A stretch of DNA of 23,589 nucleotides from positions 1 to 23,589 of IMG/VR virus record IMGVR_UViG_3300010885_036854, one strand, 5' to 3'. The DNA is from a virus. The notes under the pieces were generated by a model that saw only the letters and a program-made list of their open reading frames with translations, did not search any database and had not been told where the DNA came from. Below, one piece after another: positions 2,492-19,766 of this stretch; within the stretch, counting starts at the first letter, position 1, and each line of letters opens with the position of its first letter. The position numbers were made by a program, and so were the translations under genes.

Positions 2492-2996
2492 TTTTAAGAG
2501 GGTAGTATCTATCCTGGTCAGCGATGGTTTAGTAACTGTCGCACAGGTGAACGATGCGATTAAACGTGACCGACAATGGCGTAAGCCAATGCGTTCAGGT
2601 GCAACATGGGAGTCAGCAAAACGTTTGTCAGGTGAACTGAACGAACGCATAGAACGCAACGGGCTGAAGCCATTTAACAATGACGTGGGTGCAGTGAGTT
2701 ACATCGAATTGCTTATCCGTGTTGATGGTCACACCGAAGATGAAATACGAAACGTAATTAAGTGGGCAATGGATGACTCGTTTTGGTACAGGGTGATACT
2801 TAGCCCTGAGAAACTACGCCAGAAGTTTGACACATTGAAAGCGCAGACACACGAACGCAGTGAACCGAAGGTTGTGTACGACCCTGAGAGAGTGCGTGAG
2901 AGTATGCGTAAGTATGATGCACGATACGAACAGCGCAGGGCAGAGTCAGTTCCAATGCCTGCTAATTTTAAAGACATACTAAAGAGAGGTAAGTAA
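2481..2996 (+). CDS. Replication initiator/helicase-loader-like protein
   Basis: The ATG at 2481 (MATDFKRVV) overlaps the previous gene by 11 nt and gives 171 residues. The frame is open back to TTG 2460, with another ATG at 2469, so the exact start is uncertain. The middle (SYIELLIRVDGHTEDEIRN and VIKWAMDDSFWYRVILSPEK, about 76-114) followed by LRQKFDTLKAQ resembles the C-terminal region of phage replisome-organiser or replication initiation proteins, where W...SFW..vi.s..kLr..FdtL is typical. The basic N-terminal part (DAIKRDRQWRKPMRSG) could bind DNA. The C-terminus is a charged tail. Position in the operon with SSB and nuclease supports a replication role, which remains an inference. Confidence 0.6.
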   Translation: MATDFKRVVSILVSDGLVTVAQVNDAIKRDRQWRKPMRSGATWESAKRLSGELNERIERNGLKPFNNDVGAVSYIELLIRVDGHTEDEIRNVIKWAMDDSFWYRVILSPEKLRQKFDTLKAQTHERSEPKVVYDPERVRESMRKYDARYEQRRAESVPMPANFKDILKRGK

Positions 2997-3262
2997 TGGA
3001 TTGGATTGATGAAGCAAAGTGCAGGGGTATGGATGTAAATAAGTTCCACCCAGGCAAGGGCGTGGACTCACAAAAGATTAAGAACGAGATACTAGAGATT
3101 TGTAATGTGTGCCCCGTGATTAATGAGTGCTTAGAAGATGCACTTGGTGACTACTTACAGATTGGTTATCGTGGCGGTAAGAGTGCAAAGGAACGCAGGC
3201 AGATTGCCTCACGGCGTTCGAGAGAAGGCAACGTGTCTTGGAAAGTTAGGGATGTAGCATGA
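2996..3262 (+). CDS. whiB: WhiB-like Fe-S transcriptional regulator (first copy)
   Basis: This 88-residue protein has the four-cysteine WhiB arrangement C9, C36-x2-C39-x5-C45 expected to bind a [4Fe-4S] cluster. The turn after the cluster reads IGYRGG (56-61) instead of the usual G-V/I-W-x-G, and it is followed by the basic stretch KSAKERRQIASRRSR. WhiB proteins are confined to actinobacteria and their phages and work with the principal sigma factor; phage members can modulate host promoters. TAATG overlap with the upstream gene fixes the start. The Trp-to-Tyr/Arg change in the turn may alter sigma contact. Family certain; target promoters unknown. Confidence 0.9.
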   Translation: MDWIDEAKCRGMDVNKFHPGKGVDSQKIKNEILEICNVCPVINECLEDALGDYLQIGYRGGKSAKERRQIASRRSREGNVSWKVRDVA

Positions 3263-3736: not shown

Positions 3737-4102
3737 ATGAGAATGGATACCGTGCTACAAGGCAGACTTACAGCAGACCCCGAACTAACCTTTACTAACA
3801 AGGGAATGGCACTTGCTAAGTTCACCGTTGCAGTTAATCGCAAGAAGGGTGACGAAGATTACGCATCATTCTTTGACTGCACTATCTGGAACGAATCAGC
3901 AAAGAACCTATGCGCCTCACTCAAGAAGGGTGACCTAGTTGTAGTTTTAGGTAACCTATCCCAAGAACGTTGGGAAAAAGATGGAACTAAGTTCACTAAG
4001 ATTGTTGTCAATGCTACGAAGGTAGCAGCAGACCTCACCTTTAAGACCGCAACATTGTCAGAGCCAGAGTCTACGGGAAAGACGGTTGAAGCCGACTTTT
4101 AG
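3737..4102 (+). CDS. ssb: Single-stranded DNA-binding protein
   Basis: This 121-residue OB-fold protein reads as a bacterial-type SSB: LQGRLTADPELTFTNKGMAL (7-26), AKFTVAVNRK (27-36), FFDCTIWNESAKNL (45-58), KGDLVVVLGNLSQERWEKDG (64-83) and the closing strand. It coats single-stranded DNA during replication and recombination and would work with the ERF and nuclease of the same operon. The C-terminal linker is very short and ends EADF; this keeps a terminal Phe and acidic residues but not the full DDDIPF tip. ATG 3737 is used, with ATG 3743 two codons later as an alternative; a purine-rich AAAGAGAAAG precedes them. A 33-nt gap before it holds a candidate promoter. Confidence 0.92.
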   Translation: MRMDTVLQGRLTADPELTFTNKGMALAKFTVAVNRKKGDEDYASFFDCTIWNESAKNLCASLKKGDLVVVLGNLSQERWEKDGTKFTKIVVNATKVAADLTFKTATLSEPESTGKTVEADF

Positions 4103-4515
4103 TGACAGACTGGTCGCTGGCTAAATGTATCGGTAAGACAAGAACATTCTTTGATGACCGTACATCACGAGTCCAACGTGCCAAACTAATCTGTACCAGT
4201 TGTCCACTCAAGTCTGATTGCTTGCAGTGGGCGCTGGAACACAGAGAGGCGTGGGGTGTGTGGGCTGGACTTGACTACCATGAACTTAGAATCGTGGCAG
4301 TTTCACTTGGCTATGAGCCACCCAACAGAAAAGAAATTGAACACGGTACTGAACGTGCGTGGGCGTGGCACAGGCGACAGAAGATGAAAGACCCTACCCA
4401 CGAAACGTGCCAGCCTTGCATTGACGCTTACAACTCTGCAACTCGTGTCCGTGTCGCTCGCTATCGCAAGCGTAAAGAAGTGACTGGTAGTGGGGAGTCA
4501 CAGTCAGGGAAATAA
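4102..4515 (+). CDS. whiB: WhiB-like regulator with an added C-terminal Cys/His domain (second copy)
   Basis: A GTG start overlaps the ssb stop (TAGTG), giving 137 residues. C9, C31-x2-C34-x5-C40 form the WhiB cluster ligands, and GVWAG (52-56) is the canonical sigma-contact turn, unlike the first copy. Residues about 80-125 add a second unit: EHGTERAWAWHRR, then CQPC (103-106), then a basic helix. This H-G-T...H-R-R...C-x2-C arrangement recurs as a small zinc-type module in actinophage proteins. The fusion may give the protein its own DNA contact. It ends the rightward early operon. The WhiB call is firm; the zinc-module interpretation is moderate. Confidence 0.88.
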   Translation: MTDWSLAKCIGKTRTFFDDRTSRVQRAKLICTSCPLKSDCLQWALEHREAWGVWAGLDYHELRIVAVSLGYEPPNRKEIEHGTERAWAWHRRQKMKDPTHETCQPCIDAYNSATRVRVARYRKRKEVTGSGESQSGK

Positions 4516-6269: not shown

Positions 6270-6559
6270 GCCGTCACCGCCTCTTCCATCGTGTCGCCAA
6301 TGTCAAACAAAGTTCTCGAAGATTGGAGCAACTGCTCATACACTTCACGCTTCGTTGCTCTGCCTGCGGTGTCACTGCTAAACCCCGGCAGGTTGTGTAA
6401 CCAGTTACCATCTACCCTGCGACATACCATGTAGGCCATCCCGTAAGGTTGTGCGATTACTGCGCCTGCGACATCATCATCACCCAAGCCTGCGAAACGA
6501 CACGCCGAGACGTAACGCTTCAGGGCTTGCTGTAATTTTTCGTCCGTAATTCTTTCCAT
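6266..6559 (-). CDS. Conserved-type small actinophage protein
   Basis: A 97-residue protein with ATG 6559 and AAGGGAA in front. Its layout is an N-terminal helix (LQQALKRYVSACRFAGLG), a beta hairpin (GMAYMVCRRVDGNWLHNLPG) and a helix beginning ATKREVYEQLLQSSRTLFDI. The TKREVY...L......L ending is common in short phage proteins of unknown function. It is the first gene of a two-gene unit with its own sigma-70-type promoter at 6607-6635 and a leader hairpin. Confidence 0.72.
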   Translation of the reverse strand: MERITDEKLQQALKRYVSACRFAGLGDDDVAGAVIAQPYGMAYMVCRRVDGNWLHNLPGFSSDTAGRATKREVYEQLLQSSRTLFDIGDTMEEAVTA

Positions 6560-6577
6560 TGTTTCCCTTACTCTCTA

Positions 6578-6596
6578 ACTTAGACACTCGCTAAGT
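6578..6596 (-). promoter_or_regulatory. Leader hairpin before the 6266-6559 gene
   Basis: ACTTAG-N7-CTAAGT is a perfect 6-bp inverted repeat between the promoter and the AAGGGAA ribosome binding site, within the predicted 5' leader. Confidence 0.5.
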
Positions 6597-6606
6597 CTTA
6601 CACCTG

Positions 6607-6635
6607 ACAGTAACACAAACTACTAGCACTGTCAA
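6607..6635 (-). promoter_or_regulatory. Leftward promoter for the 6266-6559 unit
   Basis: On the minus strand, TTGACA (6635-6630) is followed after 17 bases by TACTGT (6612-6607). The preceding bases make GCTTGACA, the same -35 context as at 7245-7250 and 8042-8047. Confidence 0.65.
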
Positions 6636-6640
6636 GCCTA

Positions 6641-6654
6641 AGCCCTAGCGGGCT
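6641..6654 (-). terminator. End-of-unit hairpin (AGCCC-N4-GGGCT family, copy 2)
   Basis: AGCCC-TAGC-GGGCT begins three bases past the stop codon of the 6658-6918 gene and sits immediately upstream of the next promoter, so it separates two leftward units. Confidence 0.5.
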
Positions 6655-6657
6655 CTG

Positions 6658-6918
6658 CTACTCTGTTTCGTATGCTTTCTCTATTAAACCTACTTGAATG
6701 TCTAGGTATGTCCTGAAAACTTCCATGAGTTGAGATGCTACTTTCTCAGGGCTTGCATCTGAAGAAGTTAGGTACAAACCTACACCATTTACTATAATTT
6801 CTCCCCTGTATGGACGCTCTAGGGTTTCGTCATACTTGAAGATACGGGCACTAACTGTCGTTAGTTCTTCGGTGCCATTCTCCCTAAGCAAATTCCTAAA
6901 TTCTGTTGTTGCTTTCAT
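6658..6918 (-). CDS. Small protein of unknown function
   Basis: An 86-residue ORF from ATG 6918 with AAAAGGGAAA in front. Sequence: helix (TEFRNLLRENGTEE), strands (LTTVSARIFKYDE, GEIIVNGVGLYLTSS), then a long helix (PEKVASQLMEVFRTYLDIQV). An alpha-beta fold with a carboxy-terminal helix is likely. It is a single-gene unit bounded by an AGCCC-N4-GGGCT hairpin at each side. No family recognised. Confidence 0.7.
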   Translation of the reverse strand: MKATTEFRNLLRENGTEELTTVSARIFKYDETLERPYRGEIIVNGVGLYLTSSDASPEKVASQLMEVFRTYLDIQVGLIEKAYETE

Positions 6919-6955
6919 AATTTCCCTTTTCTCTCTTTAGCCTGTCTCATCAGTA

Positions 6956-6973
6956 CGGGGAGGCAATCCCCCG
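6956..6973 (-). promoter_or_regulatory. GC-rich leader hairpin before the 6658-6918 gene
   Basis: CGGGG-N8-CCCCG forms a 5-bp GC stem between the copy-3 end hairpin (6977-6990) and the ribosome binding site of the 6918 gene. No clear -35/-10 pair is visible here, so this gene may be reached by read-through. Confidence 0.4.
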
Positions 6974-6976
6974 CAG

Positions 6977-6990
6977 AGCCCCTACGGGCT
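6977..6990 (-). terminator. End-of-unit hairpin (AGCCC-N4-GGGCT family, copy 3)
   Basis: AGCCC-CTAC-GGGCT begins five bases past the stop of the 6996-7181 gene. It has the same 5-4-5 geometry and stem sequence as copies at 6052-6065 and 6641-6654, with a different loop. Confidence 0.5.
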
Positions 6991-6995
6991 TTCGA

Positions 6996-7181
6996 CTAGT
7001 TCTGCTCAATTCCTAAAGAGACATAAAGAGCCCATGTTACGGTTTCCAAGTCCCAACGTAAGTTGTCCAATCCGGCATCATCTCCGGCGGTGATGTTCAT
7101 CTCAATCAATCGAAGGATAGAGCGCATTTCTTGGATGTTCTTTCTAGAAACTGTCTTCTTGATTTTGTCAGTCTTTGCCAT
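6996..7181 (-). CDS. Small basic/helical protein, first leftward gene
   Basis: The preferred start is ATG 7181 (MAKTDKIKKTVSRKN), because AAAGGGA sits five bases ahead; an upstream in-frame start at 7262 would extend through the promoter and leader hairpin. The 61 residues have a lysine-rich N-terminus, then two helices (IQEMRSILRLIEMNITAGDD and LDNLRWDLETVTWALYVSLG). The basic head and helical body could bind nucleic acid, but no family is recognised. It is the first gene after a strong promoter, so it is probably among the earliest leftward products. Confidence 0.7.
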   Translation of the reverse strand: MAKTDKIKKTVSRKNIQEMRSILRLIEMNITAGDDAGLDNLRWDLETVTWALYVSLGIEQN

Positions 7182-7198
7182 GTTGTCCCTTTCAACTC

Positions 7199-7214
7199 TC
7201 AGGCGTTTACCTGA
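7199..7214 (-). promoter_or_regulatory. Leader hairpin before the 6996-7181 gene
   Basis: TCAGG-N6-CCTGA is a perfect 5-bp inverted repeat between the -10 box and the GAAAGGGA ribosome binding site. Confidence 0.45.
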
Positions 7215-7221
7215 TAACAAC

Positions 7222-7250
7222 ACATTAGCAAGCATCCTTACCCTTGTCAA
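7222..7250 (-). promoter_or_regulatory. Strong leftward promoter
   Basis: On the minus strand, TTGACA (7250-7245) is followed after 17 bases by TAATGT (7227-7222). The -35 is a perfect match with optimal spacing, so this should be a strong sigma-70/SigA-type promoter for the leftward cassette. Confidence 0.75.
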
Positions 7251-7295
7251 GCATAGTGACACTCTACAGGCCTAGTGTTTATTGGTGTTTCAAAT

Positions 7296-7313
7296 TGTTA
7301 CATAATTGTAACA
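7296..7313. promoter_or_regulatory. TGTTAC-N6-GTAACA dyad, candidate operator
   Basis: A perfect 6-bp inverted repeat with a 6-bp spacer lies about 45 bp upstream of the leftward -35 box. The half-site WTGTAAC recurs at about 7440-7446 (plus) and 7692-7699 (minus), so a dimeric repressor or activator could bind here. Confidence 0.45.
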
Positions 7314-7368
7314 TTGTTGTGAATGTGTGCACAAGCGAGGGGCAGTAGTTCAGGGCTTGGCAGTCAGG

Positions 7369-7393
7369 CAGTGAGAGTGCTAATCAGTGAGAG
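7369..7393 (+). repeat. CAGTGAGAG direct repeat
   Basis: CAGTGAGAG at 7369-7377 and again at 7385-7393, 16 bp apart, within a stretch holding four CAGT steps. It could be an iteron-like or operator array. Confidence 0.4.
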
Positions 7394-7394
7394 A

Positions 7395-7504
7395 GTGCCG
7401 AGGGTATGGGGGGTATGCCACATCTCAAGCCTCCCCTGCATGTAACAAAGGCGAACACTTGTACGACTAACAGACGTTCGCTTTGACCGGCTGTGTGCCG
7501 AGGG
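7395..7504 (+). repeat. GTGCCGAGGG direct repeat, 100 bp apart
   Basis: An identical 10-mer at 7395-7404 and 7495-7504. Between the copies lies an inverted repeat, GCGAAC (7451-7456) and GTTCGC (7476-7481), flanked by AAAG and TTT. Confidence 0.4.
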
Positions 7505-7542
7505 GGGTCATAGAAAGTGTTAGGAAAGCCCAACAACGGTAA

Positions 7543-7670
7543 ACTGTCATTCTCATCAGGGTTTTAACCTACAACCAGTTCAAAAACGCCAGAGATTATT
7601 ACATCCTAAAAAAGATAAAAACGGTAACTACACCCACTGTCATTTTCTTTTCACAACACCTGTTAAAACC
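7543..7670. repeat. Paired direct and inverted repeats in the A/C-rich half
   Basis: ACTGTCATTCTC (7543-7554) recurs with one change at 7636-7647, each copy preceded nearby by ACGGTAA. GGTTTTAAC (7560-7568) is matched by its complement GTTAAAACC (7662-7670). The elements repeat in the same order about 93-103 bp apart. Confidence 0.4.
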
Positions 7671-7741
7671 ACTATCTTTTAATGTCTCACTTGGTTACAA
7701 GTTGCCCCGCATCACCACCACAAAAAAAGCAGAGAAATGCT

Positions 7742-7963
7742 CTATAATATTCGTGGGACATCCATCCCGTCTTGAACACGAGGCGTGTCTGTGGCAGAGT
7801 TCTCTTGCCTTGACTGTTTACCTAAGAGCATAATGTGCTGCCTCTTACGTACGTGTTCGACCCAATCCTGCTCTAACCAGGTAACTACCGCTGACGTTTT
7901 ATGCTTCCCAGCATTAAACAAGTCTCTTACTCGGCGGGGACTTCCACCCACGAACGCTCTCAT
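7742..7963 (-). CDS. Possible 73-residue leftward protein, unknown; regulator candidate
   Basis: This is the only sizeable ORF in the control region. It has no ribosome binding site, but on its strand TATAAC (7976-7971) lies seven bases before the ATG, the spacing expected for a leaderless transcript, which is common in actinobacteria. A perfect ACAGA-CC-TCTGT dyad (7989-8000) covers the matching -35 position. The protein is basic at its N-terminus (GGSPRRVRDLFNAGKHKTSA), continues VVTWLEQDWVEHVRKRQHIM, and has a polar tail. A position between the leftward and rightward units is where a switch regulator would be expected. No family is recognised, and the plus strand is also open here, so it could be non-coding. 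Confidence 0.38.
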   Translation of the reverse strand: MRAFVGGSPRRVRDLFNAGKHKTSAVVTWLEQDWVEHVRKRQHIMLLGKQSRQENSATDTPRVQDGMDVPRIL

Positions 7964-7988
7964 CGGCGCTGTTATAAGAGTAGCACGT

Positions 7989-8000
7989 ACAGACCTCTGT
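7989..8000. promoter_or_regulatory. ACAGA-CC-TCTGT dyad, candidate operator
   Basis: A perfect 5-bp inverted repeat with a 2-bp centre overlaps the -35 position of the putative leaderless promoter of the 7742-7963 ORF and lies 42 bp upstream of the rightward late promoter. Confidence 0.4.
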
Positions 8001-8041
8001 GTGACGTAACTTGTATGTGAATGTTTTCACGAGCCAGGTGC

Positions 8042-8070
8042 TTGACAGGTGTATACGAGGTGTGTATAGT
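8042..8070 (+). promoter_or_regulatory. Strong rightward (late) promoter
   Basis: TTGACA (8042-8047), a 17-bp spacer and TATAGT (8065-8070) form a near-consensus SigA-type promoter in the same GCTTGACA context as the two leftward promoters. Transcription should start near 8077 and head toward the late genes. Confidence 0.78.
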
Positions 8071-8076
8071 TCTGAG

Positions 8077-8155
8077 TGGGCACTGTCCCATTAGTAACTT
8101 CCGACACTAAAAGGTAAAAGGTCCGGCACCGTAGGGATATGGGGTCGGGCTTTTT
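8077..8155 (+). ncRNA. Candidate short terminated leader RNA (about 80 nt)
   Basis: A strong promoter ends at 8070 and an intrinsic terminator ends at 8155, with no ORF between. The predicted transcript starts with a TGGG-N6-CCCA hairpin (8077-8090). By geometry it resembles the lambda pR' leader (6S RNA), where late transcription stops unless antiterminated; it could instead be a stand-alone small RNA. Confidence 0.5.
8116..8155 (+). terminator. Intrinsic terminator between the late promoter and the late genes
   Basis: GTCCGGCACC (8121-8130) pairs with GGGGTCGGGC (8141-8150) across a 10-nt loop, with one A-G mismatch and two wobbles. It is preceded by AAAAG and followed by TTTTT (8151-8155), so A-tract, stem and U-tract are all present. 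Confidence 0.75.
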
Positions 8156-8171
8156 GCTTTGATACGATATG

Positions 8172-8180
8172 TGCTATCAT
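8172..8180 (+). promoter_or_regulatory. Extended -10 promoter giving a leaderless mRNA
   Basis: TG-C-TATCAT (8172-8180) is an extended -10 element. The expected start seven bases downstream is 8187, the A of the ATG of the next gene, so a leaderless transcript is predicted. A TGATA/TATCA inverted repeat spans it. Confidence 0.5.
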
Positions 8181-8186
8181 AGAAAC

Positions 8187-8303
8187 ATGTGTTCTACTTG
8201 CGGCTGTGGCAAGCCTAAAGATAAGCATGGTGAAAAGACCATTGCTGCTGCCAATAAAAAATACGCTTTAAAGCCAAAGGCTAAGGCTCGTAAAAAGAAG
8301 TAA
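8187..8303 (+). CDS. Small Cys-rich/Lys-rich protein
   Basis: A 38-residue protein begins MCSTCGCGKPKDKHGEKTIA, giving a CxxCxC cluster plus a His, and ends in a lysine-rich tail (KAKARKKK). Short proteins starting MC-x2-CGCG with a following HG are a recurrent actinophage type of unknown role. There is no ribosome binding site; instead a -10 element sits at leaderless spacing. The stop overlaps the next ATG as TAATG. Metal binding by the N-terminus and nucleic-acid binding by the tail are inferences. Confidence 0.68.
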   Translation: MCSTCGCGKPKDKHGEKTIAAANKKYALKPKAKARKKK

Positions 8304-8455
8304 TGAAAATTCGGCGAAAGTCAGTCAAGACAGCGGACCCCGCTTCTTGGCTTTTTGACCCCAAGTACAGACGTAAGGTACGCCGCAAACGCCGTGGTAT
8401 CAAACTGACGGTTAACGGCCAGCCCTACGAAGCATGGTACGAAGACCAGTCGTAG
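8303..8455 (+). CDS. Small highly basic protein
   Basis: A 50-residue ORF starts on the TAATG overlap. The central stretch FDPKYRRKVRRKRRGIKL is very basic and is followed by a polar/aromatic end (TVNGQPYEAWYEDQS). It looks like a nucleic-acid-binding or virion-internal small protein. It is closed by a terminator 10 bases downstream. No family recognised. Confidence 0.62.
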   Translation: MKIRRKSVKTADPASWLFDPKYRRKVRRKRRGIKLTVNGQPYEAWYEDQS

Positions 8456-8463
8456 AGCAGGCT

Positions 8464-8496
8464 TTGCACCTTGGTGCGAAATTTTAAATTTTTTTT
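8464..8496 (+). terminator. Intrinsic terminator after the two small late genes
   Basis: TTGCACC and GGTGCGAA form a tight inverted repeat (about 8464-8480) and an uninterrupted run of eight T ends at 8496. The inner pairs must open to leave a loop of at least four bases. Confidence 0.62.
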
Positions 8497-8515
8497 GGGT
8501 CTAACGTTTCAATGC

Positions 8516-8544
8516 GTTACATAGTGCTACACTTAAACTATAAA
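8516..8544 (+). promoter_or_regulatory. Candidate promoter for the holin-like gene
   Basis: GTTACA (8516-8521), a 17-bp spacer and TATAAA (8539-8544) form a plausible promoter. The predicted start near 8551 is just before ATG 8553, which opens a 17-codon ORF (8553-8606) overlapping the holin GTG. Confidence 0.45.
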
Positions 8545-8593
8545 GAAAATATATGCACCCCACATCACCTCAATCCTTGCAGGAGCAGGTGCT

Positions 8594-8812
8594 GTGCTAT
8601 CATTAGTACACCCAGGCTTTACAATTCCGTCAGGAGTTCAGGGCCTTATTGCATCAATTTGCGTTTTGTCTGCTACATCAGTACAGGCTTTGCACTTTGT
8701 TAAAAGGAATAACCTAGAGGGCAACATTATCTTGGCTCAACATTTGTCTAGTCAAGTAGCAGCCTCAGTTATGGGTGACACCACATCTGCTGACGCAACG
8801 CCAAAAGCCTAA
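8594..8812 (+). CDS. Holin-like small membrane protein
   Basis: From GTG 8594, with AGGAG eight bases upstream, the protein is 72 residues. It contains VHPGFTIPSGVQGLIASICV (5-24) followed by LSATSVQALHFVKRNN, a hydrophobic segment ending in basic residues, and a soluble tail (QHLSSQVAASVMGDTT). The size, the HPGFTIP motif and the position ahead of terminase fit actinophage holin-like membrane proteins that permeabilise the membrane at lysis. The same frame is open upstream to 8537 and encodes KKIYAPHITSILAGAGA, which would complete a first membrane helix, but no standard start codon precedes it. The stop overlaps the next ATG as TAATG. The start site is the main doubt. Confidence 0.6.
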   Translation: MLSLVHPGFTIPSGVQGLIASICVLSATSVQALHFVKRNNLEGNIILAQHLSSQVAASVMGDTTSADATPKA

Positions 8813-9063
8813 TGTCTCACGGGGAGGTTATTGAAAAGTCTCTTAAAGACTGGATAGATGAGAACCTTCCTAAATTCCTCAACCGTATAAACGAGGAAAT
8901 GGATAGTGAATTGCCGTGGGAGATGCCCGTTGTAGAAGACTATGTTCTTGTAATTGCAGTTAAAGATTACAACGACGGTCTAGGCGGCATTTTTACTATT
9001 GGTGATTCAAACGTACCTGGATACAGAGTACGTGGTTTGATTGCTGACGCATTGAACTCATAA
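8812..9063 (+). CDS. Small acidic protein preceding terminase, unknown function
   Basis: An 83-residue ORF starts on a TAATG overlap and ends immediately before the terminase ATG. The layout is helix (EVIEKSLKDWIDENLPKFLN), then strands (VEDYVLVIAVKDYNDGLGGI, FTIGDSNVPGYRVRG) and a final helix. Proteins of this type, ending in ..R-x-RGL...LN, recur upstream of terminases in actinophages. It does not look like a small terminase. Function unknown. Confidence 0.72.
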   Translation: MSHGEVIEKSLKDWIDENLPKFLNRINEEMDSELPWEMPVVEDYVLVIAVKDYNDGLGGIFTIGDSNVPGYRVRGLIADALNS

Positions 9064-10983
9064 ATGGCAGTAACACCAGTACAACGCAAGAAATATTTTG
9101 AAGCACGCACGGCGGGATTCTCTATTGCTGAAAGTGCTCGCAAGGCTAAATTTTCCGAAGCCACTGCTTATAGAGTTGAGAAGGCAGCACAGACCTTACG
9201 CTCTGATGAAGGCATTGACAGTTCTGCTAGCAACTATAGAGAACTAAAAACTGAAGCCAAACTTTCAGGGCCAATTGCTTATGAAAAACTAAGTGACGAA
9301 GCAAAACTTGCTTTAGAAGACTTTGGTTATTTTCGTGAACGTTATTTTGGTCGTGTGTCTACGCCATGGCAAGAAGAAGCAGGTATGGCACTTGTAGAAC
9401 TTCTTGAATCAGAAAACAAAGAATACGTGGTTATGAACATGCCACCTGGTTCAGGTAAGACAACATTGCTACACGACATTACGTGTTGGGTTATTTGCCG
9501 CAACCGTTCAACACGACTTTTGACCGGTAGTGCGACTATGTCACTAGCCAAGCGAAACCTAATGCGTGTGCGTCGTTCATTAGAACGTGTTATCCCAGAA
9601 ATGGCTGATGACCAACTTAAAGCACGAGGGCAAGCCCTTGATGCTATTACAACTATGGCTCACGACTTTGGGCGCTTTAAACCATTAGAAAAAGAACTAT
9701 GGACTAACGAAGCCTTTATTGTTATGCAGCCTGACGAGATGGGTGCTATTTCAGAAAAGGAGCCAACACTAAGTGCCTACGGTATGGATAGTGGTTTCAT
9801 TGGAGGACGTTTCGATGGTTGTTTCTGGGACGACCTTGTGGACCCTCGCAAAGTTCGTTCTGCAGAACAACGAGAAGCAATGGAAGATTGGTACCAAGAC
9901 GTTGCAGAAACTCGACTTGAGCCTGCAGGTATGCTTGCTCTTATTGGTCAGCGCCTGGCTCCTGACGACCTTTATCGCTTTGCTTTAGACATGGTGCAGC
10001 CTTTAGACGACGAGGAAGAACAAGCACTAGATGAACTTGTTGAAGAAGAAATTGCAGCAATTCGTCGTGACAAAAAATACAAGCATCTAAAATACAGAGC
10101 ACATTATGAAGATAAATGCAGTGCAGAAAATCACAAACGAGGTTCGGATGCTTACCCCATCGGTTGTTTGTTGGACCCTCGCCGTCTCCCGTGGCGAGAA
10201 ATTTCTAACCTTATGTCGAACCGTGGAGAACGATTTGCAGTTGTATATCAACAAGAAGACCTGGCCTTAGACGAAGTATTAGTTAGAAACGAATGGGTCT
10301 ACGGGCATGGAGATAGCCCAGGGTGCATAGACAAAGAACGAGATAGGTGGGAAATACCCGCAGGGCTCAACCCCCGTGATTGCATTGTCATAGCCACAGC
10401 CGACCCTTCTCCAACAATGTATTGGTCTATCCAATGCTGGCTATATCACAAAGAATCTGAACAACGGTTTCTTTTAGACCTTATTAGGGCAAAAATGGAA
10501 GCGCCACAATTCCTGGAATATGATTACAATCAAGGGGAATTTACTGGAGTTATGGAGGAATGGCAACGTTTATCTATATCTTTAGGGTTTCCTATTCAGG
10601 TTTGGGTAGTGGAACAAAACGCAGCCCAGCGGTTTATGTTGCAGTATGACCATTTTAAAAGATGGCGACAATTACGTGGTGTGGAGATTATTCCACACAA
10701 CACCACAAGTAACAAATCGGACTCTAATTATGGTGTTACGACAATTTCCCAACATTGGAAGTTTGGTCGTGTAAGATTGATGGGTAAGGGCGAAGGCAAA
10801 GTTCGTTCAATGAGACTCATTGATGAAGTGACCAGATACCCTCATGGACGTACCGATGACTGTGTTATGGCGGAATGGTTTTTTGAATGGAACCTTCCTA
10901 ACATTTATGTACCGCCATCCGTGGCTGTCAAAGCATGGCGACCAACATGGGTGAAAAACACCCAACTAGCAAACTTGAGGTAA
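9064..10983 (+). CDS. terL: Terminase large subunit with N-terminal helix-turn-helix
   Basis: This 639-residue protein is the DNA-packaging motor and headful/cos nuclease. The ATPase half shows Walker A MPPGSGKTT (126-134), the segment LLTGSATMSLAKRNLMRVRR (152-171) and Walker B CFWDDLVD (253-260). The RNase H-like nuclease half shows VIATADPSP (442-450) with Asp447, LLDLIRAKME (470-479), WVVEQNAAQRF (514-524) with Glu517, and GRTDDCVMAEWFFEW (595-609) with Asp598/599. Residues about 14-42 (AGFSIAESARKAKFSEATAY) read as a helix-turn-helix, a feature usually found in the small subunit. No separate small-terminase gene is recognisable in the window, so DNA recognition may be built in. It abuts the portal gene (3-nt gap). 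Confidence 0.95.
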   Translation: MAVTPVQRKKYFEARTAGFSIAESARKAKFSEATAYRVEKAAQTLRSDEGIDSSASNYRELKTEAKLSGPIAYEKLSDEAKLALEDFGYFRERYFGRVSTPWQEEAGMALVELLESENKEYVVMNMPPGSGKTTLLHDITCWVICRNRSTRLLTGSATMSLAKRNLMRVRRSLERVIPEMADDQLKARGQALDAITTMAHDFGRFKPLEKELWTNEAFIVMQPDEMGAISEKEPTLSAYGMDSGFIGGRFDGCFWDDLVDPRKVRSAEQREAMEDWYQDVAETRLEPAGMLALIGQRLAPDDLYRFALDMVQPLDDEEEQALDELVEEEIAAIRRDKKYKHLKYRAHYEDKCSAENHKRGSDAYPIGCLLDPRRLPWREISNLMSNRGERFAVVYQQEDLALDEVLVRNEWVYGHGDSPGCIDKERDRWEIPAGLNPRDCIVIATADPSPTMYWSIQCWLYHKESEQRFLLDLIRAKMEAPQFLEYDYNQGEFTGVMEEWQRLSISLGFPIQVWVVEQNAAQRFMLQYDHFKRWRQLRGVEIIPHNTTSNKSDSNYGVTTISQHWKFGRVRLMGKGEGKVRSMRLIDEVTRYPHGRTDDCVMAEWFFEWNLPNIYVPPSVAVKAWRPTWVKNTQLANLR

Positions 10984-12876: not shown

Positions 12877-13302
12877 ATGCCACGTAAAGGTAGAGGTGGA
12901 GAACGCCAAGGAACACCAGGCACAGCATACGGAAATCGTTCAGATTTAAATATGCCAATTAGTACAGTCCCAGGACAAGACTACGGTAAAGCATCTGCAC
13001 AACAAGCGGCACAAAGCGCCGTACCTATGGGTCAATCACCAGTATCCAATTTACAACAAGCACCTGCAATGCCCACCCCGCAAGCAGCACCACTTCCACA
13101 GCCAGGTAGCATGCCTTGGCTTCACCCAACTAATCGTCCTAATGAGCCAGTAACTGCAGGGCTTCCATTTGGACCAGGTGCTTCAGCGCCGGAACCATCA
13201 CGAGATGTAATTAGTAGTGCATTATCGTCAATTGCACGCACCGCTAGTTCATCAAGTGCTGTTTCAGAATTGGCAGCAACTGCTAAGTCAATGGGTCTTT
13301 AA
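12877..13302 (+). CDS. Low-complexity Pro/Gln/Ala-rich virion-region protein
   Basis: This 141-residue protein begins MPRKGRGGERQGTPGTAYGN and RSDLNMPISTVPGQDYGKAS, then runs through Ala/Gln/Pro-rich sequence to a short C-terminal helix (AVSELAATAKSMGL). The start RGG..GTPG..Y.NR.DLN followed by YG..AAQ.AVP is a pattern I associate with genes just after the portal in actinophages, where the function is unknown. It probably acts as a mostly disordered virion or head-assembly partner. Its stop overlaps the giant gene as TAATG, so the two are coupled. Confidence 0.72.
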   Translation: MPRKGRGGERQGTPGTAYGNRSDLNMPISTVPGQDYGKASAQQAAQSAVPMGQSPVSNLQQAPAMPTPQAAPLPQPGSMPWLHPTNRPNEPVTAGLPFGPGASAPEPSRDVISSALSSIARTASSSSAVSELAATAKSMGL

Positions 13303-16300
13303 TGGCTGAAGTAAACCCAACCGCACCCGCACCAGCACCAGTTGCACCTCCAGCACCTACAAACGTTTTTGAAGGTCAACAGGATGTAACAAAATTTAAC
13401 CTTGAACAAAACTCAGTAGGTCAGAAAATTGCTGACATGGTTGCTGCTAACCCAGCGTTAAAACATCAACCCGCAACCGTGTTTGGATTAAGCAATGTTG
13501 AAAGCGTTGATGGTAAAACACTAGGCCTTGCAGCAAAGCACATGACTACGTTTCAAGCAGTTGGAAATACGGTTAACCCTAGTACCCCTACAACAACTGT
13601 GCCAACCGTCCAAAGTGTAGATACAACCACCACAACACAACCAGGGCAAAAAATCCCGTCTAAAGTATCCGCAGGCGGAGCGACATCAACCACGCTTTTT
13701 TCTGTGTCAGGGAATACACCAGCACCATCTGGACCAGTAGTTCAAAACACTTACAATGGAAGCAACATATTTCACAGCATTGCTAATGAGTTTGATGCAT
13801 TTCGTCATGAAACAGCAAATTTGGCTGATGCATTTGGACAAGGTACAGTACCAATTGCAAAAAGTATTTGGGATTTTGTTCACCGCACTGGTGTAACTAT
13901 TGAAGAACTTGCAACGGTGGGGAATGCAGGGTATAGCAGTAGTCAAAGTAAAAATCTTGCAGATGCTTTTGAAACATTGTGGCACACAGCAACATATATT
14001 CCTAACACGGTAAACCCTTGGAGTCAGCAAAACCTGTTGTTTTCTATGCAACACATGGGTGCTTATCTTTTAACAATGTCAAAACAAAAAGGTTGGGCTT
14101 ACACAATCTCTTATATGATGCCAACCATTCTTGCTGCTATTGCGGCTAAAAATGCTGCAGTTGGTTCTTTGGGAATGGAAGCAATTGATTCTGCTGCAGT
14201 TGATGCAACAACAATTAAAGACCTTGAAGCAAAAGCAACAAGCGGAACAATTAGTGACGCAGAACGTAATTTGCTTGACAAAGCAAAAATACGCACACAA
14301 GAACGTGCAGACACACCCAAAAGGGAAAACGTAACACAAAAATTTATTAATGATATGCATGATGTATCAAGCCCAATTCGTCGTGGTATGGCAGGGGTAA
14401 CCAACGTTGCGGGGTGGCGTGGGCCATTGCGTCTTATTGGAATTCCAGTTAGAACGGCTATGAAAATTCTTCATGCAGCAACTGCTCCAGGCCGTGACCT
14501 GTCAAACAATATTGCTTATTTAATTGCACAACAAAACGCACAAACAGACCCATTTCACAAAGCATTGTGGGAAGCAACAAAAGGTGGAAATGTTTTTGAT
14601 GCAAACGGAAACCGTATTGGTACAGATGGAGAAGCATTTGCACAATTTTTAGGTGCCCACCAAGGAGACATGTGGTTTGCTCCAATTCAAAAATCAGTTG
14701 ACTTTTATACTAAATGGTTAGGTTCAGACCCATTTGGTGCTGCAGGTAAGGTAACCGCTGCTGCACGTACATCACAAGGTCTTGGTGGGATGCTTGGAAA
14801 ATGGTTTGATGGTACCGGCATTAAAGAGGGTTCAGACATTTGGCGAGTTGCCGATAAATATAACCGTGCTGCAAGAACCTTTGAATGGCAAGCAAGCCAT
14901 GATGAAGGTCAGATTCTTAGAAAATTTACTAACACATACACTGTTGACCAAGCAAGACTTTTAGGTAAAGCCAAAACTGTAGATGCAGTTAAAAGCCTTC
15001 ATGCTGAATGGGCTGACGCAAATGCATTGTTAAAACCAGAAGCACCATTAATGAGTGTGTGGGACCTTGCCAAAGCAAATATTAAAGAAGGTAAATTTGC
15101 AGGCATAGGTTTTGCAGGCGATGGCGGTATTCTTGGACGTGGCATTGATTTTCTTCGTGCGAACAGGGCTGAAATCCTTAAAGATACTGCTTACGATGTA
15201 GCGCCTAAAGATGCAACCGAGGCCATTGTTCAAGACGTAAATGAACAGATGCAAACTATTAAGGCTCGTTGGTTTAGAAACTTTTTTAATAAGTCACCAA
15301 TGTGGCGTGATGAAACAAGCCTAAAACTTCAAACTGAAAAAATTACACCAGGAAGCGTAAACGCTATTAGTGACGGTATCGCTAGGTGGGGACAGTCTAT
15401 TGGCATTTCGGAAACTGAAATTAATCAAGTAACAAAAGATTTGATGGCAACAGGCACAGACACAGAAGCATACAAAAATGTATTTGAAAACTTTTTAGTA
15501 CGCTTTGGTGTTTCAGGAGTATTAGCAGGAATGGAAAAGAATTTTGTTTCTGCTTTACGTAATGATGTAATTCAAATGGTTCGTATTAATGTTCGTCATT
15601 TTACTGCTGGTGACTATGGTGCAGAAACCGCTACGTTTACACAGGGTGCAGAAGCAACTAACTATGGTTCTGTTATTGATGCAGAAAAAAACCAGGCTAT
15701 TGGCGCAGGTCTTGATGAGCAGGACCTTGGTTCTATTTATCTTCCACGACGTGCTTCTATGGAAGGAATGGTTCGTGATATTCGTCAAGCAATTCAAAGT
15801 CAAACAGCATCAACAACAGTTATGGCTAGCGAATCAACACGTTTATTTTTAGACCAGTTTAAAAAGTTGGCCAACTACAGCAACGCAACTATGGCTGGTG
15901 TTGACAAAGAAATTGCGGCACTTGCCGGAACAAAAGAAATACCTGTTATGGCACCCCGTGGCCTTAAGGCAAAAGAAATGGCCACTGGCTACGCAACGGG
16001 TGTTGAGCAAGTACGTAATGAAATTAGAGGTTACGTACAGCAGATTACAGAAAACCGTGATTTGCCAAATGTTCCCTACCCAAAGAACTATGAAGTATTT
16101 ACCGCAGCATTTACTCCAGTACAAAACACTATTCGTACATTAAAGATTCTTTTGAATTTAAGTGATGAAAAGGTAATGAACAATCTTGCACTTGACGCAG
16201 AGGGAATGTCCCCTGCCCTAGAACAGATTAATGGCCTTATACCGCCTAACCCATGGGTTAAAGATGCTCTTGCTTTATCACCAGAAAACACGGCTTATCT

Positions 16301-19300
16301 GCGAGGCATGCTTCATGCATACGAAGATTCTGCAAATATATTTACCAACCGTTTAAATACGGTAAATATGTCTACAAAAGATTTAGACACGCACTTTGAT
16401 GAATATGTAACTAGTCTTAACAAAACTCAAGAACTAGACAAAAATTTAACTGAGGCTCTTAAAAAGAGAACAATTGAAATACGTAAGGGTAATAGTAACT
16501 ACTTAAACGGTTGGTACAAATTTGGAGACATGGTTAACCATATCCAAAGTAACTACTGGGTTCAATTGGCACTTGCTACGGGTAAATGGGCCGCACACAT
16601 TGTTGCATCTGAAAGCATGTTAAATTATCTTCGCCTTGGATTCCGTGGTGGATTTGAGTCATCAGTAATGCGTTCCGCAATTAGACACGAAATTGGTTAT
16701 ACAGAAGTTGCTGGCATGAATGAGCGTAGTCTTATTAACCGTCTGCAAAAAAAGATTGATGACATTAAATATCCTAAGCCAGTAGAATCAGAAATTGTTG
16801 ACCCTGCCAGCGTTGGCTTGCACGAACCAGGTACAGACCTCAAGAATATCGAAAACGGTCTTGCTCACAATGTTGAGTCTGGTAAAAGTATTCATGGTGT
16901 TTCATTTAATGACCCTGAGTTTCATACAACTGAAGTTGGTTTGTTAGGTAAAGCAACTGCTATGGCGCTTTCCGGTATTAATGAAATATTTCTTAAATTG
17001 CCACGAGACATTGTTGGTGGGGCTATTCTAGGTTTTGACCGCACACTTCTTTCGGGTATGAAGGGTTTACAATACGAACGTTTGTTGGACAACACTGTTC
17101 GTGCAATGATTGACTTTAAGGGACACTTGCCTGGTGGCGTAGAAGGCCACAACGGTGGAATTTTTGAAAATGATTTTCTTGATTACACCGCTAAAAGAGC
17201 AACGGTTGGCTATGACCAATCAGGAAAATTAAAAGTTAGTCATTTGTACCCAAGTAGTAAATACACTGCGTTTAATAAGGGTGAAGGTTACGTAACCGCT
17301 CTTTACTCAGCAATTGCTAAATTGGGCAGAAGCGATATGAAGCGTGCTACCGTTCAACGCCTTGCTGACATAATGCATGAAGAAGGAACAAAGATTCTTT
17401 TGTCTGAAGGCAAGACAGCAGAACAAATTGCAAACATGACTCTTGGTGATGTACGCAAAAAGGCTGAAAAATCATTTAGTTCTGAAGGGGACTTTAAACG
17501 ACTTATTGATGAATTAACTATTGCTGGATACAAACACATCAGTAGCCTTCCAGACAATGTATTGGCACGCTACCGTAGAAACGAATTACGACTTGCGCAA
17601 AATTTCCAATGCACTATTCCTGGATTAGACAACGCAAGGGGCGACTGGGCAAAAGCAATTGCACATGACGTATTTGGTGTTGTAGGCAGCAGAACTGGTG
17701 AAGAAGGTAATTTAATTCACCACAGCCTTGTTGACCAAGTTGTACATGGAGAAGCAAAGTACCCAACGGAATTAGCAAAAGACATTAACAAAATGCCAAA
17801 AGGCACAGAACCTGTAAACATTCAAGCACGTCAAATGGTTCCTTACAAAGACCTGGGTGGTTCGCTTGGTAAATTGAAAGATGGAAATTTTCTTAGTTGG
17901 CTTGCCGACAAGGGACATGAAAAAATCTTTGGTCCAATTATTAACAACATGGTTCGTGAACCTGTATTTCTTTTGGAATACCATTATGCGTATGAATCAA
18001 TGCGTGATGCAGTTGACCGTGGATTAATTTCTGAAGATGCCGCTAGAACAAAAGCGGCTATTCACGCAACAGAAAACATGACACGATTTGTGCACAACCC
18101 CCTTGATAAGACTGTTGTTGAAAAAAACATCAAGGTAGCAGCGCCATTTTATTTTGCTCAAAATCAGGCTTGGCGCAGAGCCCTTCGTGTACTACAAAAA
18201 GACCCAGGTGCTTTTGAAAAGTTTATGAAAATTCAACTTGGTATTACTAACCATGTTTCTGTAAACAACGACAAAGGCCAACCAATTACAGTTACGATTC
18301 CAGGTTCTCAATGGATTGGAGATGCATTATCTCTAATTGGTTTCCCAACAAGGGGAATGGGCATAACTACTTCTTTGTCACACGTAGGTTCTATGGATGT
18401 TCTAGGCAGCAGCATGAACCCAGTTTCAATGATTGCTGGAATTGCACGCCCTAGTTTTGGTCCTGCTGTAACGGTCCCTATTGATGGTTTAAATCACTTA
18501 ATGGGTCTTGTACACTTTAACTGGGTACAAAATATTATTAATTGGCTTGCACCTGACGCAGTTAAATACAGTTTAGGTAGCCAATTGCAACCATCACCAA
18601 TTCTTTCAGACCTTTACGGAGCGCTCCGTGGTGACCAGAGTGGCTTAGCATCATCGGTAAATAATTCTTTGCGTGAGCACTTTGTTACTGACTTTCAAAA
18701 AAGGGTAGCAGAGGTAGAATCAAACCCACAATACTTAGCAGTTATTGAATCATTGCCTGCAGACAAACAATGGGCTTACATTACTGGTACGGCAGGATAT
18801 TTACAAAGCGTTGATTTTAAAGACACAAACAAACAAACTGCTTTTATTAGTGCTGCTCACGGAAGTGGAACTACAATGGCTGTATTGAAAGCACTTCTTG
18901 GTGACGTGTTTAACCCAGGTACTTCAAAAATTCGTGACATGCTTTCTAAGGCTCCTGAATTTCAAGCAATGTACTCTAAGATGTCACCTTTAAAAAACGC
19001 TGATGGTTCTAGCACGTATTCCTATTGGGACATAGTTTCCCAGTACACACAGGAGCACCCTGAATGGCTTTTGTACACCGCAGCAATTTCTGGACCTACG
19101 GGTGTTTCTTTCCCTGAAACAAAGTCGTTCTTTAATATGGCAACTAATCACCCAGAGTTTATAACAGCGCACCCTAGCGCCTCTGCTTATTTGTTAGATA
19201 GAAGTGGCCAAGCAGATAATCGCAGTTGGGCATTGCAAATTAAACTAGGCCTACGTCAAACATCTGCACCACAAAATGTGGTTAACAATTTATTGATTGC

Positions 19301-19766
19301 CGATGGTGAAGCGTACGTTAACGGAGTACTTAAAACCAAGTATCCTAATTACCAAATATATAATTCCCCTGATTACAAAAATTACACTGCAGAAATTAAT
19401 GCGTACATGCCTACCAACAAACCATGGTGGAATTACAAACAGCACTCAGACTCGACAGTACTTGAATCAAGGGCTATTGAAGAATTTAATAACATGTTTG
19501 GGTTTAATGGTCAACCGCCAGAAAACGCTCCCGACTCTTTGTTCGGTGGCACAGCGGCTAAACAAATTTGGGAAAACATTTTAACTAATTACAATAGCGA
19601 AGCAAGACTTCTTTCAAACATCCCAAAGTACGAAGCAAAAAAACTTAAGAGTACTTTTTATGACAGAGTACAAAAAGATGCAGAAACTAATCCAGTGTAC
19701 AACAATGCACAAAGATACTTTCTTTTAAACGTTGTACGATTTATGCCAACAGTTGTAATTAATTAA
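13302..19766 (+). CDS. Giant (2154-residue) virion-type protein of unknown function
   Basis: One uninterrupted 6.5-kb frame occupies more than a quarter of the window. Residues about 1-145 are Pro/Thr/Ala-rich and unstructured. A hydrophobic, Ala-rich stretch (SYMMPTILAAIAAKNAAVGS, about 267-286) could insert in a membrane. Most of the rest is long mixed helices. Near 1590-1720 lies the region FVHNPLDKTVVEKNIKVAAP and FYFAQNQAWRRALRVLQKDP, then VTIPGSQW and FPTRGMG, a look I associate with very large phage structural proteins. The C-terminal quarter has repeated Tyr/Trp/Asn-rich helices. A location between portal and scaffold, not among tail genes, argues for an internal or ejected virion protein rather than a tape measure. 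No lysozyme, protease or polymerase active site is evident. Codons are markedly A/T-ending. Confidence 0.75.
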   Translation: MAEVNPTAPAPAPVAPPAPTNVFEGQQDVTKFNLEQNSVGQKIADMVAANPALKHQPATVFGLSNVESVDGKTLGLAAKHMTTFQAVGNTVNPSTPTTTVPTVQSVDTTTTTQPGQKIPSKVSAGGATSTTLFSVSGNTPAPSGPVVQNTYNGSNIFHSIANEFDAFRHETANLADAFGQGTVPIAKSIWDFVHRTGVTIEELATVGNAGYSSSQSKNLADAFETLWHTATYIPNTVNPWSQQNLLFSMQHMGAYLLTMSKQKGWAYTISYMMPTILAAIAAKNAAVGSLGMEAIDSAAVDATTIKDLEAKATSGTISDAERNLLDKAKIRTQERADTPKRENVTQKFINDMHDVSSPIRRGMAGVTNVAGWRGPLRLIGIPVRTAMKILHAATAPGRDLSNNIAYLIAQQNAQTDPFHKALWEATKGGNVFDANGNRIGTDGEAFAQFLGAHQGDMWFAPIQKSVDFYTKWLGSDPFGAAGKVTAAARTSQGLGGMLGKWFDGTGIKEGSDIWRVADKYNRAARTFEWQASHDEGQILRKFTNTYTVDQARLLGKAKTVDAVKSLHAEWADANALLKPEAPLMSVWDLAKANIKEGKFAGIGFAGDGGILGRGIDFLRANRAEILKDTAYDVAPKDATEAIVQDVNEQMQTIKARWFRNFFNKSPMWRDETSLKLQTEKITPGSVNAISDGIARWGQSIGISETEINQVTKDLMATGTDTEAYKNVFENFLVRFGVSGVLAGMEKNFVSALRNDVIQMVRINVRHFTAGDYGAETATFTQGAEATNYGSVIDAEKNQAIGAGLDEQDLGSIYLPRRASMEGMVRDIRQAIQSQTASTTVMASESTRLFLDQFKKLANYSNATMAGVDKEIAALAGTKEIPVMAPRGLKAKEMATGYATGVEQVRNEIRGYVQQITENRDLPNVPYPKNYEVFTAAFTPVQNTIRTLKILLNLSDEKVMNNLALDAEGMSPALEQINGLIPPNPWVKDALALSPENTAYLRGMLHAYEDSANIFTNRLNTVNMSTKDLDTHFDEYVTSLNKTQELDKNLTEALKKRTIEIRKGNSNYLNGWYKFGDMVNHIQSNYWVQLALATGKWAAHIVASESMLNYLRLGFRGGFESSVMRSAIRHEIGYTEVAGMNERSLINRLQKKIDDIKYPKPVESEIVDPASVGLHEPGTDLKNIENGLAHNVESGKSIHGVSFNDPEFHTTEVGLLGKATAMALSGINEIFLKLPRDIVGGAILGFDRTLLSGMKGLQYERLLDNTVRAMIDFKGHLPGGVEGHNGGIFENDFLDYTAKRATVGYDQSGKLKVSHLYPSSKYTAFNKGEGYVTALYSAIAKLGRSDMKRATVQRLADIMHEEGTKILLSEGKTAEQIANMTLGDVRKKAEKSFSSEGDFKRLIDELTIAGYKHISSLPDNVLARYRRNELRLAQNFQCTIPGLDNARGDWAKAIAHDVFGVVGSRTGEEGNLIHHSLVDQVVHGEAKYPTELAKDINKMPKGTEPVNIQARQMVPYKDLGGSLGKLKDGNFLSWLADKGHEKIFGPIINNMVREPVFLLEYHYAYESMRDAVDRGLISEDAARTKAAIHATENMTRFVHNPLDKTVVEKNIKVAAPFYFAQNQAWRRALRVLQKDPGAFEKFMKIQLGITNHVSVNNDKGQPITVTIPGSQWIGDALSLIGFPTRGMGITTSLSHVGSMDVLGSSMNPVSMIAGIARPSFGPAVTVPIDGLNHLMGLVHFNWVQNIINWLAPDAVKYSLGSQLQPSPILSDLYGALRGDQSGLASSVNNSLREHFVTDFQKRVAEVESNPQYLAVIESLPADKQWAYITGTAGYLQSVDFKDTNKQTAFISAAHGSGTTMAVLKALLGDVFNPGTSKIRDMLSKAPEFQAMYSKMSPLKNADGSSTYSYWDIVSQYTQEHPEWLLYTAAISGPTGVSFPETKSFFNMATNHPEFITAHPSASAYLLDRSGQADNRSWALQIKLGLRQTSAPQNVVNNLLIADGEAYVNGVLKTKYPNYQIYNSPDYKNYTAEINAYMPTNKPWWNYKQHSDSTVLESRAIEEFNNMFGFNGQPPENAPDSLFGGTAAKQIWENILTNYNSEARLLSNIPKYEAKKLKSTFYDRVQKDAETNPVYNNAQRYFLLNVVRFMPTVVIN

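Follow-up and report, generated by a model that had tools for sequence, protein, structure and literature searches.

Several short untranslated RNAs are known from phage intergenic regions, including OOP (77 nt) and PreS (about 88 nt) of lambda and sar (68/69 nt) of P22 (review PMC12197685). In the lambda late switch, the promoter pR' is followed by the intrinsic terminator tR' with no ORF between them and with the head genes further downstream, and the switch employs a Q binding element in the promoter DNA and a promoter-proximal sigma-dependent pause (PMC7171158). Non-coding RNAs are also made by actinobacterial phages; in cluster A mycobacteriophages, abundant small transcripts arise in the early Pleft region, of which about 500 bp are transcribed, and show no evident stem-loop terminator (PMC5712189). 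In mycobacteria, the 6C/B11 sRNA has pyrimidine-rich loops for which chaperone-independent pairing with G-rich mRNA leaders has been proposed (PMC10470900).

The window, by which we mean the whole 23,589-base IMG/VR virus record analysed here, carries a unit that resembles each of these systems in part. Judging from sequence comparison, positions 8042-8155 of this actinobacterial lake phage probably form a self-contained small-RNA gene, the RNA of which (about 80 nt) would act in trans. Like OOP, PreS and sar, the predicted RNA is short, untranslated, of similar length and located in a phage intergenic region. Unlike them, it has an exchangeable body, occupies several slots within its phage group and adjoins a leaderless promoter, and no sequence relation to them was found. 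An earlier note on this DNA had proposed a late switch similar to lambda pR'-tR' or, alternatively, an RNA of about 80 nt. The locus does share with pR'-tR' a promoter followed by an intrinsic terminator, without an ORF between and with head genes further downstream; however, it differs in the predicted leaderless promoters of its downstream genes, and in having relatives that lack the unit, and the searched records, mostly fragments, yielded no gene of two Q families. The alternative is strengthened by the finding that promoter, RNA and terminator are conserved together with an invariant internal motif. A small-RNA gene is more likely than a lambda-type late switch, because relatives swap, lose and duplicate the unit and because the next gene is preceded by a promoter of its own. 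With the cluster A transcripts the unit has in common that they are non-coding RNAs of actinobacterial phages, but no sequence match to them was found in phage records. With 6C/B11 it shares the actinobacterial host group and a pyrimidine-rich motif, an analogy that is functional speculation; 6C/B11 has two C-rich loops as against one ACUUCCGA motif here, and Rfam scans gave no 6C match.

The promoter P1 and the intrinsic terminator described in the earlier note are both real features of the sequence (Table 1). P1 is the best promoter match within 6500-10500 and the sole match of at least 11/12 on either strand of the whole window. The terminator core (GTCCGGCACC..GGGTCGGGC) occupies 8121-8150, and the full stem at 8111-8160 folds at -28.5 kcal/mol (z -5.1), which none of 200 shuffles matched. 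The stem sequence is identical throughout the type A relatives described below, and a stem-scoring scan detected just two strong terminators in the window, this one among them. As had been stated, no plausible ORF lies between P1 and the terminator; a short ORF-less RNA is framed by its own promoter and its own terminator, which is the arrangement of a small-RNA gene. A comparable pair, defined as a promoter of at least 10/12 with an equal-scoring terminator 20-130 nt downstream, occurred in 0/200 dinucleotide-shuffled windows, so that chance pairing is excluded. Over 8071-8160, Rfam 15 (whole-window scan and permissive scan of 6900-8300) gave no match at the gathering threshold and none at E up to 5. 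In addition, BLASTN of 7690-8200 found no match among phage and plasmid records.

Table 1. Features of the small-RNA locus and its surroundings (window coordinates)
Feature	Position	Strand	Observation
Divergent structured RNA, neighbour of the unit	7480..7970	-	Left end uncertain; conserved DNA to about 7480
-10-like TGC-TACTCT of the leftward RNA	7977..7985	-	Conserved in alignment; putative promoter role
Conserved block upstream of P1	8000..8030	.	93-97% identity in L008 and L012; within the 94% stretch 8000-8071 of L011
P1, sigma-70-type promoter TTGACA-17-TATAGT	8042..8070	+	11/12 consensus match; spacer and promoter kept in class I relatives
Predicted class I, type A small RNA (about 79 nt)	8077..8155	+	P1-to-terminator interval; 18 distinct homologues; models R1/R2; predicted ends
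5' hairpin TGGGCACTGTCCCA	8077..8090	+	Weak, -3.9 kcal/mol; replaced or absent in other versions
Conserved motif ACTTCCGA	8097..8104	+	Predicted loop of small second hairpin 8091-8110 (folding); TTCCGA in 18/18 versions
Intrinsic terminator	8121..8155	+	Core stem 8121-8150, U-tract 8151-8155; A-tract pairs lengthen the stem to 8111-8160
P2, extended -10 TGC-TATCAT	8172..8180	+	Directly after the U-tract, 6 nt before ATG 8187; also in RNA-less relatives
First downstream gene, encoding the 38-aa protein MCSTCGCGKPKDKHGEK..	8187..8303	+	Conserved in 37 sequences
Second gene of the same short unit, encoding a basic 50-aa protein	8303..8455	+	Conserved in 12 sequences
Palindrome GCACCTTGGTGC and T-tract	8463..8496	+	Flagged by the terminator scan; kept in about 20 relatives
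P3, TGC-TACACT	8525..8533	+	6 nt before the next gene start (8540), leading into the terminase operon; same layout in L006, L009 and L025

A terminase search of viral contigs yielded 80 related loci (designated by L numbers), and the named phage collection contained distant terminases only (<60% identity, none covering >80% of the query). In related lake phages, the slot precedes a small CxxCxC protein or a small basic protein, and 18 distinct versions of the RNA were collected, eight with the terminator of the window (type A) and ten with a different terminator (type B). The sequence (C/T)TTCCGA is constant across the 18 versions, and the hairpins flanking it on either side interchange. The RNA body is conserved in the relatives beyond the promoter and terminator, as expected of a small-RNA gene, and promoter, RNA body, terminator and P2 can be read directly from the DNA, as can their conservation and exchangeability. 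The covariance models R1 and R2 detect at most one copy per record. The comparison among related phages suggested in the earlier note showed the unit to be conserved. Little covariation appeared within either type, for which the sequences are few, so that the evidence for the RNA structure comes mostly from folding and from the exchange of hairpins. Among 25 representative linkers, picked for their layout irrespective of motif, the most frequent 5-mer is TTCCG (15/25 vs 0.9 in shuffles), a count that is no independent-sample test since the linkers are related sequences. The same limit applies throughout, as related sequences are not independent samples and the related records are mostly fragments. 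A family from an unrelated phage (L087), with a promoter, a hairpin and CTTCCGA, is probably a chance resemblance and was left out of the analysis; most other matches to the first motif pattern were also judged to be chance.

If the unit is a small-RNA gene, transcription from P1 would stop at the unit's intrinsic terminator, and the resulting RNA of about 79 nt would expose the motif ACUUCCGA. We infer that this RNA is produced and acts in trans with ACUUCCGA as its active part, most likely by pairing with purine-rich (GGAAG-type) sites in host or phage mRNAs, or by binding a factor. The terminator would insulate the next unit, which would begin at the leaderless promoter P2. Further support for the small-RNA reading comes from the presence, in this phage group, of other promoter-hairpin-terminator RNAs whose sequences differ and which were identified by eye. 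A second class (GTACCAAGTTGGTAC..GCCTCAACC..) occupies such slots in L031, L052 and L076, with a similar one in L064; a third (CTCGGAAAGTCCGAG..CGATGC..) is seemingly free-standing in L018, L024, L070, L071 and L073. Against it stands the fact that the layout always adjoins a co-directional gene, as would be equally expected for a leader, in a set that was selected for that layout. However, P2 is there with or without the RNA, and the RNA is therefore not needed as a leader of the next gene. The little covariation per type also speaks against a small RNA, as does the lack of a TTCCG-type motif in some cassettes (L019, L024, L031 and the second slot of L076). With the 28-29-nt linker as query, a duplex search of four phages found no shared target.

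P2 would be the start of a leaderless mRNA, as suggested by its extended -10, the fixed 6-nt gap, the lack of a Shine-Dalgarno sequence at the gene beginning with ATG 8187, and the precedent of M. smegmatis, in which TANNNT -10 motifs occur and about 24% of transcripts are leaderless (PMC6448022). A layout search over the related loci (terminator, within 55 nt TANNNT, 4-8 nt, ATG, ORF) gave 44 distinct places, about 40 of which were judged by inspection to be such cassettes. In a representative set of 28, where a gap of 4-8 nt was permitted, the -10 lies 6 nt from the ATG in 26 and 7 nt in two. Near the class I RNA, the P2 pattern is present in 13 of 16 distinct upstream sequences; the remaining three belong to internal CxxC gene copies behind another gene, with a purine-rich upstream sequence and a TAATG junction. 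As a background, an extended -10 at the P2 spacing precedes 4/295 ORFs. The same layout is also found ahead of another gene about 550 nt upstream of terminase, and the linker there often has CTTCCG. The 38-aa product of the first gene has no match in Pfam or PHROGs. Further downstream, the palindrome GCACCTTGGTGC before P3 may be either terminator-like or an operator. The window has ATA at 8540-8542, 6 nt after the -10, where the MKK..APHIT gene of relatives has ATG; either the gene uses a non-canonical start codon, or the triplet has arisen by mutation or by a sequencing error.

These downstream promoters bear on late antitermination of the lambda pR'-tR' or put/nut-like kind, in which P1 would yield a short terminated RNA early, and later the recruitment of a phage factor to the promoter or to the leader RNA would allow read-through of the terminator into the late genes. 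An ORF-less promoter and terminator do stand ahead of the head genes, and the same layout heads several co-directional units. However, P2 and P3, both predicted from sequence and both conserved, would give the downstream genes transcription starts of their own, a read-through mRNA would carry no Shine-Dalgarno sequence for the first gene, and a terminator-like palindrome lies ahead of the terminase operon. The earlier note placed the whole late module downstream of the switch; head genes do follow, but the region does not look like one transcription unit, since two further promoters and the terminator-like palindrome precede terminase. Type B and some distant cassettes have a common 5' hairpin with a varied stem and a similar A-rich loop, as nut-like sites can. 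The idea of a boxB-like conserved loop is suggestive for these only, and it fails in the window's own branch. The hairpin at 8077-8090, which had been regarded as a possible recognition site, does not suit that role: 60/200 shuffles fold equally well, and it is missing in L058, L110 and L122. Meanwhile, the Pfam Q families PF06530 and PF03589 had no match in 26 records, mostly fragments, with their controls detected; PF06323 had no match either, but its controls were also silent.

The distribution of the unit also argues against a late switch. On the terminase tree of the 42 loci with the slot covered, the class I RNA is present in 20 and lacking in 22, and six gain/loss changes are needed, at least four of which are forced by starred branches. 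The unit has been gained or lost among phages with identical terminase N-termini, of which L009, L011 and L014 carry the class I RNA and L012 does not. In L006, L008 and L012, the upstream palindrome block and P2 are retained, P1 and the RNA are missing, and no R1/R2 copy was found elsewhere in their records; therefore, in these phages the head genes can do without the unit. Taken with the promoters of the downstream genes, this makes late antitermination unlikely, though antiterminators outside the described families do exist.

The position of the terminator might be seen as a sign of a polymerase relay, in which polymerase loaded at P1 would terminate at P2, stay on the DNA and restart at the weak leaderless promoter, with the RNA body being of minor importance. 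In the 28 representative cassettes, the distance from the end of the terminator stem to the P2-type -10 is 2-24 nt (median 8), so that the -35 region of P2 falls inside the terminator, and the RNA body is exchangeable. Retention and restart of polymerase after intrinsic termination have been described in vitro (PMC6978380, PMC6978322); however, the restart usually runs in the reverse direction (PMC6978322). Short distances are also expected from compact genomes, and some relatives have P2 but no P1. As the relay leaves the invariant TTCCGA unexplained, we rate it as very unlikely. We give equally little credence to a natural relay cassette with a strong first promoter, whose exchangeable RNA body would also make the slots modular sites for phage small RNAs. 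The unit sits between a divergent structured-RNA gene and the rightward unit, and P1 and the terminator might serve as an insulator only, with the short transcript as a by-product. Yet a terminator alone would suffice for this, the conserved promoter and motif would have no explanation, and relatives manage without the unit; this is the least probable of the readings considered. In the region between the divergent promoters, a palindrome, GTGAATGTTTTCAC, is located at 8017-8030; it is unique in the window, is kept also by relatives without the small RNA, and is a candidate operator of the divergent promoter region.

The divergent RNA, which runs leftward from about 7970, may matter more than the small-RNA unit. 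It may span several hundred nt, given that the conserved DNA reaches about 7480, and it is conserved in dozens of related loci. In 25 aligned sequences, 34 hand-drawn pairs, including a long-range helix of GAACACG with CGTGTTC, leave 96.5% of cells paired. Cells with compensatory changes on both sides number 107, vs 32 in shuffled alignments and 7-19 in slid versions, over which the structure is favoured because it was drawn by eye from the same sequences. Despite the hand drawing, the compensatory count is striking. The minus-strand ORF at 7742-7963 was rejected as a gene, since relatives have in-frame stops and frame changes there while the RNA pairs covary. Large phage RNAs without a known function, such as GOLLD and ROOL, have been described (PMC12286853); the Rfam scan matched the leftward RNA to no family, these types included, and we therefore claim no family membership for it.

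If the small-RNA reading is correct, the locus would define a concrete family of small RNAs for lake phages that are uncultured and known from contigs alone. It also illustrates that the lambda analogy, a promoter and terminator before late genes, can mislead if the next gene is leaderless and started by its own promoter. The repeated layout makes testable the function of the ACUUCCGA RNA and whether a terminator in the -35 region feeds a promoter. According to PHROGs, the rightward genes include terminase (1e-51), portal (4e-11) and major head protein (5e-61). Two WhiB-family genes (Pfam PF02467) were detected at 2996-3262 and 4102-4515, and it is mainly these that point to an actinobacterium as the host. 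A distant terminase relative (50% identity) is found in a MAG titled Acidimicrobiaceae, and another genome has two weaker matches. Other observations in the window include a type II hammerhead ribozyme match at 6936-6997 on the minus strand, between two leftward small ORFs (40.1 bits, gathering 37), and an ORF of 2154 aa at 13302-19766, after the portal gene, with no PHROGs match. In addition, the protein encoded at 833-1306 is similar to the PHROGs 'peptidase HslV family' (1.4e-8).
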